A DNA stretch of 64,000 nucleotides, from NCBI RefSeq assembly GCF_007671685.1, contig NZ_VCNL01000005.1, forward strand, positions 124,001 to 188,000, in the 5' to 3' direction. The notes beneath the pieces were generated by a model, which searched no databases, was not told where the DNA came from, and was given only the letters and a program-made list of their open reading frames with translations. Each line of letters opens with the position of its first letter. Positions within the stretch are counted from its first letter, which is position 1. Both the position numbers and the translations under genes were made by a program. This DNA comes from Halorubrum salsamenti. Its GTDB lineage: Archaea > Halobacteriota > Halobacteria > Halobacteriales > Haloferacaceae. Positions 28,179 to 32,230 of this stretch are shown here, piece by piece.

Positions 28179-29234
28179 TCAGTTACGGGCCGCCGGTGGT
28201 TGTCGGACGCGAGCGACGATCGAGTGTCGTAAATCTAGCTCCAGCCGCAGTTCAGATAGCCGCTTCTCGGCGATATCGAATCCGCACTCTCGATAGACCG
28301 CACCTACCCCCTCGTTTGCCGCCGACAGATCGACCGTGAGCTTACGGTGCTGGCCATCCGCGTACGCAATGACCTGTTTCACCAGCTCCGAGTCAATACC
28401 GCGGTTTCGCTCGGCTTGGTCGACGTAGATCTGGACGGCCGGGTCGGCGGAGTCGTCGGGGGCGATGGCGGCATGTCCGACCACGCGATCGCCGTCGAAC
28501 GCGACGAGGTTCCATCCCTCAGAAGTCACCCGGTCGATCCACGCGTCGGTTCGAACGATCGCTGCCAGTGGGAGGTCCGCCGACTGCCCCTGTTCGTCGA
28601 CACCGTCGTACAACTCCGTGAGAGCTCGACGGTCCTCGGGCCGATACGGTCTGACCAGTAGCGGCCGCCCCTCGGTGCCTTCGAACCGTGGACACCGTGG
28701 TGGACAGTAGGGAGTTCCCTCACAGTCGGCGTTGTCCCACCCGTTACAGGCGATACGCGACTCGCAACGAGTTGACGGGCGTCGTTTGACCAGTGCGTAG
28801 CAGTCCAGCGACAGCACTGTCGTCTCGAACTGATTCGTCACCGTAATCTCCTCGTGAAGAACGCCTGTGTTGGGATCCCCCTCCGAGGGCTCTGTGGCGA
28901 CAACTGTCGTCGCTACCGAAATCGTATCACCGGCTCGGACCGGTTCGTGCCACTGGACGTTGTCCATCCCGATTCCGGCGATCACGGCCCATCGTTGTCG
29001 AACTGCTTCGACGAGCTTTCGAACGGAAAGCAACAGGGTGTGATAGCCGCTCGCGATGATACCGTCGAACCGACTCTCTGCAGCGGCCTCCGGATCGGTA
29101 TGAATCGCGAGCGGATCGTATTGCCGTGCGAACTCGATAATCTCGTCCCGGGAGAAGTTAACCGATCCGCAAAAGTGAGTCGAGCCCTCCTCGATATCCT
29201 CAAGATACCGTGTTGTATTAGGTTCGCTTTGCAT
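28179..29234 (-). CDS. MaoC-like hot-dog domain fused to a GNAT acetyltransferase
   Basis: 351 aa. Residues about 1-155 are a MaoC/R-hydratase hot-dog domain with the catalytic-type motif RQYDPLAIHTDPEAA (Asp40, His45). These domains hydrate enoyl-CoAs or act in related acyl chemistry. A cysteine-rich linker follows (about 165-195, six Cys, including CEGTPYCPPRCPRF), which may bind zinc. Residues about 200-330 are a GNAT fold (LLVRPYRPEDRRALTELYDG; GHAAIAPDDSADPAVQIYVD; RNRGIDSELVKQVIAYA), which transfers acetyl from acetyl-CoA. ATG 29234 chosen over upstream codons, since the hot-dog fold begins there. Physiological substrate unknown. The two folds together are rare. Confidence 0.8.
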   Translation of the reverse strand: MQSEPNTTRYLEDIEEGSTHFCGSVNFSRDEIIEFARQYDPLAIHTDPEAAAESRFDGIIASGYHTLLLSVRKLVEAVRQRWAVIAGIGMDNVQWHEPVRAGDTISVATTVVATEPSEGDPNTGVLHEEITVTNQFETTVLSLDCYALVKRRPSTRCESRIACNGWDNADCEGTPYCPPRCPRFEGTEGRPLLVRPYRPEDRRALTELYDGVDEQGQSADLPLAAIVRTDAWIDRVTSEGWNLVAFDGDRVVGHAAIAPDDSADPAVQIYVDQAERNRGIDSELVKQVIAYADGQHRKLTVDLSAANEGVGAVYRECGFDIAEKRLSELRLELDLRHSIVARVRQPPAARN

Positions 29235-29352
29235 CGATATTGAAAATCGGATCGTGACCCGCATAATTCGTTTTTCGAATATGTTCGGAAGCGCGTCGAG
29301 ATCTGTCGCTCCGTACGCGCCCGTAGCGCTGACGAGAAGCGCAACGGTTCAT

Positions 29353-29627
29353 AAGTACGTCCGCGCGATCGACGCGAGCCAAGCTGACCAGCTACTAACC
29401 GACCGACAGCAAGAAGTGCTGCTCGCCGCTGTCGAAGCTGGCTACTACCGCGCACCGCGTGAATCGACGTTAGGTGACGTGGCCGATGCGCTCGACATCG
29501 CGACCGCGACGTTAGCGACGTGCTCCATCGAGCTGAGGGGCACGTCATCCACTGGTTCGTCGAGGGCACATGGACGTGTGACACCCCTCCGACAAAAATC
29601 GGTACTCGCTCTCCAAACCCATCGTAA
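29353..29627 (+). pseudogene. relic of a Bat-type HTH-10 regulator
   Basis: Plus-strand residues LLTDRQQEVLLAAVEAGYY and STLGDVADALDIATATL are the HTH-10 (bacterio-opsin activator) DNA-binding domain. After TTAGCGAC the frame breaks. The other frame continues VLHRAEGHVIHWFVEG, the expected end of that domain, so one base was lost. The large N-terminal sensory part is missing. Dead gene between two minus-strand genes. Confidence 0.8.
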
Positions 29628-29644
29628 CGACGGCTTCGAGAGTT

Positions 29645-30298
29645 CTAGACCGTTTTCACGGTGAACGGCGAGCCGTCGCTGAGGACGACCTGCACGCGGC
29701 GGTGCCAGGCGTCGGCGAATGCCGCCCGCTGCTTGTCACTCGCCGACCCGTCGAGGATCCGCTGGAGATTCCCGATCGCGGGCCCACCGTCGGGAACCTC
29801 GCCAACGTGGTACGTGACTTCGATCGTTTCGTCCGTGTCGGTTCGACGGAAGCGGAACGTCGGGTCCGGCGTGTCCGGATCGAACGCGTCGAAGCGCAAG
29901 AGGTCACGGCGGCCGCCGTAGCCGCCGGCGAGACCCCCGAAGCCGTCGTCTTCGGTCGCACCGGTCACGTACGAGATGATGCGGCTCATCACGCCGTATG
30001 CGGCATCGTCCCGCGGACCGGCCGCTTGGACCTCGATCTCGCTTCGGACCGGATAGTCGTCGGGATACAGAGCGTCGAGTCCGAGCTGGGCGATTCGATA
30101 GGCGCCCGAAGCGGTCGGACAGGAGTGACCGGCCTCTTTCACCGCGTCCGCGTAGGTGATGACGAACGGAGCGCCCGGTTCGAGGACGCCGAGCGCCTCC
30201 GCGACGGGGTCGCGGATTTCGATCGGGTCGACGTCGTAGTCGACCTGCCAGTCGGTGCCGGTGTGCGTCGCGTCGGTCGTAGGTGAATCTGTAGTCAT
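29645..30298 (-). CDS. FmdE-like protein
   Basis: 217-aa soluble protein. The segment ADAVKEAGHSCPTASGAYRI resembles the Cys/His region of the FmdE family (tungsten/molybdenum formylmethanofuran dehydrogenase subunit E type). In many organisms such proteins stand alone and probably bind metal. A Gly-rich turn (GLAGGYGGRRDLL) follows. It lies 12 bp after a heavy-metal P-type ATPase gene and is probably in the same operon (HMA protein, ATPase, this gene), which favours a metal-related role. Start ATG 30298. The family call is moderate; no reaction can be named. Confidence 0.65.
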   Translation of the reverse strand: MTTDSPTTDATHTGTDWQVDYDVDPIEIRDPVAEALGVLEPGAPFVITYADAVKEAGHSCPTASGAYRIAQLGLDALYPDDYPVRSEIEVQAAGPRDDAAYGVMSRIISYVTGATEDDGFGGLAGGYGGRRDLLRFDAFDPDTPDPTFRFRRTDTDETIEVTYHVGEVPDGGPAIGNLQRILDGSASDKQRAAFADAWHRRVQVVLSDGSPFTVKTV

Positions 30299-30310
30299 TG
30301 GTTGTGGTGG

Positions 30311-32230
30311 TTAGTGTCGGAGCAGTCGCATCCCGTTAAGGATGACGAGGAGAACGCTCGCCTCGTGGACCAGCATCCCGGCGGCGAGCGTGACGTAGCT
30401 GGTGAGCACGCCAGCGAGCAGGACGGTTACGGTCAGCACCGCGATTCCGACGTTCTCGAGGACGTTCCAGCGCGTTGCCTTGCTCAGTTTGACCGCGTAG
30501 GGGATGCGTTCGAGGTCGTCGGCCATCAGCGCCATGTCCGCGGTTTCGATGGCGGTGTCCGTCCCGGCCGCGCCCATCGCGATACCGACGTCGGCGGTCG
30601 CCAGCGACGGCGCGTCGTTGATGCCGTCGCCGACCATCGCGACGACGTGGCCGTCGGCCTGGTAGGCCTCGATGACGGACTGCTTGTCCTCGGGGAGGAG
30701 TTCGGCGCGGTACTCGTCGATGCCCACTTCCCCTGCGACGACACTTGCCGTCCGCTCGTTGTCGCCGGTGAGCATCACGGTCTCGATGCCGGCGTCTTGG
30801 AGCGCCGCGACGACCCCAGGAGCGGCCTCTCGAAGTTCGTCGCGCATGGCGATCACGCCGACGACGCTGCCGTCTCGCACGACGTGGACGGCCGTCTCGC
30901 CGCGTTCCTCGCGGCCGCGGACGTACTCGGCGATGTGATCCGGGATATCGATGCTGCGGTCGTCGAGCAGCGCCCGGTTCCCAACGACGAGTTCATGACC
31001 GTCTGCGTGGGCGACGACACCTTTCCCGGCGACCACGTCGAAGTCATCCGGGTCCGGAACCGACCGGCGTACGGCGCTCGCGTCGTCGGACTGGGCGACC
31101 GCAGTTCCGCCATCGGTTGCGGCGGTCGGACGATCGCGTGCCGCGTCGACGATGGCGTCGGCGAGGTGGTGTTCGCTCTTCTTCTCGGCGGTCGCCGCGA
31201 GCGAGAGCACCTCGTCAGTAGTGACGCCGAACCCCTCGACGCCCGCCACGCGGGTCTCCCCCTTCGTGAGCGTCCCCGTCTTGTCGAAGGCGACGAGGTC
31301 GATCTTGCCGGCACGTTCGAGGTGTTCGCCACCCTTCATCAGGACGCCCGACCGGTCGGCGTTCCCGATGGCCGAGACGATGCTGACCGGCGGTCCGATG
31401 ACCAGCGCGCCCGGACAGCCGATGACCAACAGCGTCAGCGACAGGATTGCGTTCTGCGTGACCGCGTACGCGCTGATAGCGAGCACGATGACGGCCGGGG
31501 TGTAGTACTTCGCGAACCGGTCGATGAGGCTTTCCGTGGGGGACTGGGCCTCCTGGGCCTCCTCGACGCGGCGGATGATGCGTTCGAGCGTCGTATCCGA
31601 GCCCGCACCCGTCGTCCGGACTTCCAGCGCACCCTCTTGGTTGACCGTCCCGGCGTAGACCTCGTCGCCGTCGGCCTTGTGAACGGGCGCGCTCTCGCCG
31701 GTGACCGGCGCTTGGTTGACGGTGCTTTTGCCGTCGATGATCTCGCCATCGACCGGAATTTTCCCGCCCGGCTTCACCACGACGACCTCGCCCTCTTCGA
31801 CCTCGCGGGCGGGAACCTCCCGCAGTTCCCCGTCGCGGCGGACGGTCGCCGTGTCGGGCGTCAGCTCCAGCAGCTCCTGGAGGGCCGACCGGGTCTTCCG
31901 CATCGTCCGTCCTTCGAGGTAGCTGCCGAGGCTGAACAGGAAGACGACGGCCGCTGCCTCCCAGTACTCGCCGATGACGACGGCGCCGATAGCGGCCAGC
32001 GTCACCAGCGTCTTGATGCCGAGCGTCCGGTTGGTGATCTCGTGGTAGGCCGTCTTGGCGATGTCGTAGCCACCGATAATCGTCGCGAGGATAAGGACGG
32101 CGGCGCTTGCGGTGTCGAAACTCGTGAGGTACCCCAGGCTCCAGCCACCCCCGTAGAGCAGGCCGCTCGTCGCGGTGACGATGGCCTTCCGGTGGTTTCG
32201 GTAGTACTGCGTGATAGATTGTTTGTTCAT
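30311..32230 (-). CDS. heavy-metal P1B-type ATPase
   Basis: 639-aa cation pump. It has two N-terminal spans after MNKQSITQYYRN and no HMA domain of its own. The actuator is TGESAPVH, the phosphorylation site DKTGTLTKG, then EKKSEHHLADAI where most relatives have SEHPL, and the hinge GDGINDAPSLA. The transmembrane metal motif is CPG (VIGCPGALVIGPPVS) instead of CPC, and the last span reads HEASVLLVILNGMRLL. Substrate class (Cu, Ag, Zn or Cd) cannot be assigned safely. ATG 32230 lies 4 bp after the HMA gene stop. Cys-rich HMA and divergent regulator genes support metal-induced efflux. Confidence 0.88.
   Translation of the reverse strand: MNKQSITQYYRNHRKAIVTATSGLLYGGGWSLGYLTSFDTASAAVLILATIIGGYDIAKTAYHEITNRTLGIKTLVTLAAIGAVVIGEYWEAAAVVFLFSLGSYLEGRTMRKTRSALQELLELTPDTATVRRDGELREVPAREVEEGEVVVVKPGGKIPVDGEIIDGKSTVNQAPVTGESAPVHKADGDEVYAGTVNQEGALEVRTTGAGSDTTLERIIRRVEEAQEAQSPTESLIDRFAKYYTPAVIVLAISAYAVTQNAILSLTLLVIGCPGALVIGPPVSIVSAIGNADRSGVLMKGGEHLERAGKIDLVAFDKTGTLTKGETRVAGVEGFGVTTDEVLSLAATAEKKSEHHLADAIVDAARDRPTAATDGGTAVAQSDDASAVRRSVPDPDDFDVVAGKGVVAHADGHELVVGNRALLDDRSIDIPDHIAEYVRGREERGETAVHVVRDGSVVGVIAMRDELREAAPGVVAALQDAGIETVMLTGDNERTASVVAGEVGIDEYRAELLPEDKQSVIEAYQADGHVVAMVGDGINDAPSLATADVGIAMGAAGTDTAIETADMALMADDLERIPYAVKLSKATRWNVLENVGIAVLTVTVLLAGVLTSYVTLAAGMLVHEASVLLVILNGMRLLRH

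Follow-up and report, generated by a model that had tools for sequence, protein, structure and literature searches.

The window analysed here (the whole 64,000-nucleotide stretch of Halorubrum salsamenti DNA) carries on its minus strand a single uninterrupted frame of 351 codons, 28179 to 29234, that encodes a MaoC hot-dog domain followed by a GNAT domain. The sequence-only reading, made without database searches, had described this combination, and both domains exceed their Pfam cut-offs in the one frame: MaoC_dehydratas (PF01575) matches residues 25 to 118 (E of 1.9e-17; 63.5 bits, cut-off 27) and Acetyltransf_1 (PF00583) matches residues 236 to 319 (E of 1.9e-9; 38.2 bits, cut-off 20.7). 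The start at 29234 is favored because the upstream ATG at 29264 overlaps a TATA-like box and because the fusion protein of Halostella pelagica, introduced below, begins at the equivalent residue. The features are as follows.

28179-29234, minus strand: whole gene of the MaoC - Cys4 motif - GNAT fusion protein, 351 aa (single frame, full-length Halostella pelagica homologue, dN/dS)
28779-29234, minus strand: MaoC hot-dog module of the hydratase-2/PaaZ C-terminal type, residues 1-152 (PF01575, identity to relatives, fold match)
29115-29117 and 29100-29102, minus strand: MaoC dyad D40 and H45
28749-28778, minus strand: true fusion joint, residues 153-162 (unconserved, low model confidence)
28683-28748, minus strand: Pat1-type Cys4 motif C163-x7-C171-x5-C177-x3-C181-P-R-F, residues 163-184 (cysteines conserved in 35/35)
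28182-28682, minus strand: GNAT core, residues 185-351 (PF00583 and alignments against a Pat2 orthologue, L005)
28437-28439 and 28392-28394, minus strand: altered GNAT active-site positions A266 and D281
29263-29268, minus strand: TATA-like box AATTAT, ~30 nt before the start
29275-29287, minus strand: palindromic promoter element CGAACATATTCGA, 53 nt before the start, resembling AACATGTTCG of cluster Cys-GNAT genes

Beside the fused gene, the open reading frame 29254-29664 contains on the plus strand (29395-29517) a truncated HTH_10 sequence (Bat-type regulator) that covers 41 of 53 profile positions and then runs into unrelated sequence; it looks like a gene fragment. The adjoining minus-strand stretch, 29645-32230, encodes a 217-aa protein without a Pfam match and then a P-type metal ATPase. 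Many Halorubrum genomes have this pair at 78 to 90% DNA identity, the present genome has it more than once, and a match in one further genome (G117) spans from the HTH_10 fragment through the ATPase gene.

Composition of the fusion protein

The MaoC half is 61 to 67% identical to its closest relatives, which are MaoC proteins of aryl-CoA clusters. Its Asp-x4-His dyad, D40/H45, correctly recognized from the sequence as the MaoC catalytic motif, is invariant in 17/17 relatives and in both fusions and aligns with D561/H566 of PaaZ. An AlphaFold model built on a 39-sequence alignment contains two well-formed domains (mean pLDDT of 85), whose relative orientation is uncertain (pTM of 0.56). In this model, residues 8 to 155 superpose on MaoC dehydratases (3exz, Z of 19.5, rmsd of 1.9 over 147 residues; PaaZ 6jql, Z of 17.1), so that the hot-dog fold and dyad are common to the MaoC half, the MaoC-like dehydratase 3exz, and the C-terminal MaoC domain of PaaZ. 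PaaZ, however, carries an aldehyde dehydrogenase domain, which is absent from the fusion (the profile match of the fusion covers the C-terminal part only, 47.7 versus 562.8 bits); the fusion instead has a GNAT domain at the opposite end, and the position of PaaZ H583 is occupied by S62. By Pfam match, dyad, and hot-dog fold, the MaoC half belongs to its family, and hydration of a CoA thioester is predicted.

The six cysteines previously counted "in about 30 residues" are all present (145, 157, 163, 171, 177, and 181), but the six span 37 residues and five of them span 25. Conservation is confined to C163, C171, C177, and C181, which are found in 35/35 stand-alone GNAT relatives. These relatives open with C-x(6-7)-C-x5-C-x3-C-P-R-F, mostly within ~10 to 15 residues of their start, and the cysteine segment is therefore the N terminus of a Pat1-type GNAT module rather than a fusion-specific cysteine-rich linker, as it had first been described. 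C-x5-C-x3-C is a hallmark of Pat1 of Haloferax volcanii and its close homologues, with a predicted role in metal binding or redox chemistry (PMC12607858), and the fusion has this arrangement (C171-x5-C177-x3-C181) at the N terminus of its GNAT core. The motif is nearly unchanged between the two fusions (21/22 residues identical; dN/dS of 0.02), and its pLDDT is ~50 or lower. The true joint, residues 153 to 162, also has low pLDDT and retains identity at 1/10 positions.

The GNAT half is 45 to 51% identical to GNATs of the aryl-CoA clusters. Residues 175 to 335 superpose best on 4u5y (Z of 18.9; next unrelated GNAT, 17.0), the GNAT domain of Streptomyces lividans Pat complexed with an acetyl-CoA synthetase domain. 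The "full GNAT fold" of the sequence-only reading thus holds for the fold, but the active-site positions are altered. These were numbered by alignment against L005 (G000:C12:596871-600413), a protein of the same genome taken as the Pat2 orthologue because it matches the published Pat2 numbering exactly (E105, V110, N147, and Y154) and, like Pat2, has a gene overlapping one for a UspA-like protein. The catalytic glutamate (Pat2 E105, Pat1 E119) is replaced by A266 in the window protein and by N in Halostella. The equivalent of the P-loop glycine G120 is D281 in the window protein alone, whose P-loop reads R-N-R-G-I-D where Q/R-x-x-G-x-G/A is expected; the Halostella protein keeps this glycine and has the canonical R-D-C-G-I-G. 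The tyrosine equivalent to Y154 is present in the window protein (Y314) and is C in Halostella, and the equivalent of N147 (N307) is kept in both. The R-x-x-G-x-P-P loop (residues 217 to 223) is lost in both fusions, with changes at R217, G220, and P223, each conserved in 33 to 35 of the 35 stand-alone GNATs.

In H. volcanii Pat2, E105A and Y154A each abolished activity (PMC12607858). Loss at the E105 position alone nevertheless does not imply inactivity, since K or Q occupies this position in several GNATs of the clusters whose other motifs are all intact. The altered active site as a whole argues against simple acetylation by the fusion, and the earlier suggestion of a possible acylating or detoxifying role toward a CoA-linked product finds no support. 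H. volcanii Pat1 itself (HVO_1756) is a single-domain protein with catalytic glutamate E119 and a conserved P-loop (PMC12607858), whereas the fusion has a preceding MaoC domain and has replaced both the glutamate and the P-loop glycine; single-domain architecture is described as common for archaeal Pat1 and Pat2 homologues (PMC12607858). Bacterial Pat and RpPat, acetyltransferases of AMP-forming CoA ligases, include the nearest GNAT fold (S. lividans Pat, 4u5y), and the stand-alone relatives of the fusion adjoin aryl-CoA ligase genes in several clusters; the activity of the bacterial enzymes is established, while the GNAT active site of the fusion is altered.

Stand-alone relatives in aryl-CoA clusters and a promoter element

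The sequence-only reading knew no pathway for this combination of domains, yet haloarchaeal phenylacetate/aryl-CoA clusters (PaaABCD, CoA ligase, and UbiD) contain stand-alone relatives of the MaoC and GNAT halves alike. The window genome itself encodes a stand-alone Cys-GNAT (46% identity; C17:19205) and a stand-alone MaoC protein (61%; C17:46225). Both belong to a large aryl-CoA cluster (L042/L043, G000:C17:12000-50000) on the same contig as the fusion. The cluster also encodes a benzoate-CoA ligase-family protein above the TIGR02262 cut-off; PaaA-, PaaC-, and PaaD-like proteins, all below the equivalog cut-offs; enoyl-CoA hydratases, a thiolase, an acyl-CoA dehydrogenase, and UbiD-type decarboxylases; and, judged from the sequence, amidases and an ABC transporter of the branched-chain type. 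In Halostella, stand-alone MaoC and GNAT genes lie ~2.3 kb apart in a paaABCD-paaK-type cluster. One further genome (G424) has MaoC and GNAT genes adjoining, 68 bp apart and in the same order as in the fusion, which is the expected precursor of such a gene (compare PMC516016). The reaction of the cluster MaoC proteins is putatively of the hydratase type.

In eight clusters the GNAT gene has a UspA gene as its neighbor, and in four a CoA ligase gene. GNAT and UspA genes are paired in two subfamilies, that of the Pat2 orthologue L005 and, often, that of the cluster Cys-GNATs. The benzoate-CoA ligase-family proteins contain P-R-T-[DE]-T-G-K (a P-x4-G-K motif), which we take to be the type of site acetylated by Rhodopseudomonas palustris RpPat in CoA ligases. 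Both BadA and related aryl-CoA ligases are substrates of RpPat, which inhibits them by acetylation (PMC6640162). Cluster context, ligase motif, and this precedent together make it plausible, by analogy, that the stand-alone cluster GNATs are protein acetyltransferases.

The fused gene lies outside the aryl-CoA cluster in both carrier genomes, and its assignment to the pathway therefore depends on its relatives and on a promoter element. A few kilobases from the Halostella fusion (L045:3417-6357) are genes for a TPP-dependent decarboxylase-type protein and for a class I aminotransferase, with an IclR-like regulator nearby; these neighbors may possibly form a route from an aromatic amino acid to an aryl-acetate.

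The TATA-like box is consistent with a leaderless haloarchaeal promoter, and a box at similar spacing precedes the Halostella fusion and the cluster GNAT genes. Cluster Cys-GNAT genes have AACATGTTCG ~20 nt above the TATA-like box, and at the corresponding position, 49 to 53 nt before the start, each fused gene has AACATATTCGA. The matrix for this element was built without the fusions, and, with the motif picked after inspection of the data, the chance expectation for each fusion site is ~0.004 per 70-nt upstream region; the site in the window, read on the complementary strand, is the top-scoring one in the whole 64 kb. The two sites count as one piece of evidence, since the fused promoters are themselves related. 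The AACATGTTCG palindrome occurs ~45 to 50 nt before Cys-GNAT starts in several haloarchaeal families (L002, L007, L009, L038-L040, L044, L050, and L051). A general role as cluster operator was considered and is unsupported: in the clusters scanned, it is found for the most part ahead of the GNAT gene, in some cases in the interval shared with a divergent UspA gene.

Distribution and evolution of the fusion

No other fusion was found in the family sample (170 genomes). The order sample (392 genomes) contained one full-length homologue (G201; 62% over residues 2 to 351), located on the Halostella pelagica plasmid CP040679.1 (61.9% over 351/351). In the plasmid collection, this plasmid is the sole record of 217 matching in which one place covers at least 80% of the query. 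Samples at class and phylum level, overlapping with those of family and order, yielded no further fusion, and none was found in viral contigs, so that the fusion is known from two genomes among several hundred. Remnant or read-through fusions 3' of MaoC genes in four genomes (G211, G067, G166, and G013) were rejected; these candidates arose from alignments extending beyond a stop, and the sequence past the stop is unrelated.

Nearly all homologues are thus separate genes, the very pattern that the sequence-only reading had foreseen as a sign of two genes wrongly joined by sequencing or assembly. The same architecture is nonetheless carried by an independently assembled plasmid, the two fusions are sisters in both domain trees, and unfused cluster copies are present separately in the same genome, which leaves an artefact with a negligible probability and the fusion in one gene as real.

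Support for the sister relationship is 100/99 in the MaoC tree and 100/100 in the GNAT tree. The stems of the fusion clade are long (0.62 and 0.63), as are the tips (0.39 to 0.53), most likely reflecting a single fusion event and long retention. Between the two fusions, dN/dS is ~0.27 overall, 0.28 for MaoC, 0.27 for the GNAT core, and ~0.8 for the joint, figures that are approximate, as dS is near 1; they indicate purifying selection on both halves. Stops and frameshifts are absent from the gene in both genomes.

DNA similarity between the two fusion loci is restricted to the gene (72% over 1,043 bp). Relatives within Halorubrum lack the fused gene and conserve the pst flank and the P-type ATPase flank of the locus independently of each other; GC3 of the fused gene is 0.67, versus 0.83 to 0.90 in the pst and phoU genes. 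From these observations we infer acquisition of the fusion as a single gene by horizontal transfer.

Function of the fusion and its meaning

The best reading of the sequence evidence is that the fusion is a real protein of two modules, spread by horizontal transfer and derived from genes of haloarchaeal aryl-CoA (phenylacetate-type) clusters. Its ancestors would be a PaaZ-C-type MaoC hydratase gene and a Pat1-type Cys4 GNAT gene of such a cluster. Functionally we favor, tentatively and at somewhat under an even chance, a hydratase-active MaoC half joined to a GNAT half that now serves to bind metal and CoA or to dock a partner. The MaoC half would still hydrate or hydrolyze an unsaturated CoA thioester arising in ring cleavage or in the β-oxidation that follows it. 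The Cys4-GNAT half would no longer be an ordinary lysine acetyltransferase but a metal-bound (probably Zn) module that binds CoA or docks a partner, and it may tie the hydratase to the former target of the GNAT, most plausibly an aryl-CoA ligase.

Alternatively, both halves might be active: a hydratase and a Pat-type acetyltransferase that acts on the aryl-CoA ligase or on further enzymes of the pathway would combine flux and feedback in one protein. Pat1 family membership by motif, a Pat-like fold whose best match is bound to an acyl-CoA synthetase, the adjacency of GNAT and CoA ligase genes with P-x4-G-K in the benzoate-CoA ligase-family members, the RpPat precedent (PMC6640162), and purifying selection on the GNAT half all point this way; replacement of the catalytic glutamate and loss of the R-x-x-G-x-P-P loop in both fusions, together with replacement of the P-loop glycine in the window protein and of the tyrosine in Halostella, make it unlikely, if still a serious contender. 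Losses of conserved residues that differ between the two proteins could also be those of a chance fusion in decay, in which a MaoC gene, still functional or itself dying, carries the GNAT domain as a passenger. Such decay would suit a lower-GC single-gene insert next to an HTH_10 fragment with only two carriers found, but dN/dS of ~0.27 in both halves and 0.02 in the Cys motif over a long divergence, intact frames, and a promoter element kept in both genomes render it rather improbable.

Quite improbable, too, is acetylation of a small aromatic amine by the GNAT half, the product inducing or detoxifying the pathway. The model for this is BadL, a GNAT encoded in the benzoate cluster of R. palustris, which converts aminobenzoates to acetamidobenzoates that serve as inducers (PMC6191541), and an amidase-like gene, by sequence reading, adjoins the GNAT gene in the cluster of this genome; against it stand the closest solved fold and the family, both of protein acetyltransferases, the same active-site losses, and the lack of an identified BadM-like regulator. 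We give an outside chance to a more elaborate arrangement in which the MaoC half would be a built-in acyl-CoA sensor, a pathway CoA thioester gating or retargeting the GNAT half, and in which the GNAT half so gated would be a divergent metal-dependent Pat1-type acyltransferase with a noncanonical catalytic residue, yielding a one-polypeptide archaeal switch for acyl-CoA-controlled protein acylation.

Among characterized proteins, one with a related layout is Escherichia coli MadA (YiiD), a GNAT-hot dog malonyl-ACP decarboxylase whose GNAT half is dispensable for decarboxylase activity (PMC8666670). Both proteins fuse independently folded GNAT and hot-dog domains, but in the proteobacterial MadA the GNAT comes first and the hot-dog domain is PF09500, whereas in the fusion the hot-dog comes first and is PF01575; PF09500 is absent among its Pfam matches up to an E value of 1. 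BadL is likewise encoded in a catabolic cluster for CoA-linked aromatic acids but has a small-molecule substrate, and a MaoC domain is not mentioned in its description (PMC6191541). The open-access literature yielded no fusion of MaoC with a Pat1-type GNAT, the only hot-dog/GNAT fusion being of the MadA type, and no report on targets of the Pat1-type Cys4 GNAT family. Given these differences, and the commonly single-domain Pat1 and Pat2, the architecture is new, assembled from known families.

This rare gene joins two proteins of aromatic-acid breakdown that are normally made separately. If its GNAT half is inactive, it would exemplify a protein acetyltransferase turned binding module. As a Rosetta-stone fusion, it links the Pat1-type Cys4 GNAT to a specific enzyme type of aryl-CoA breakdown and makes the CoA ligases of the clusters candidate targets for the stand-alone GNATs, a proposal testable in haloarchaea, where Pat1/Pat2 genetics exist.
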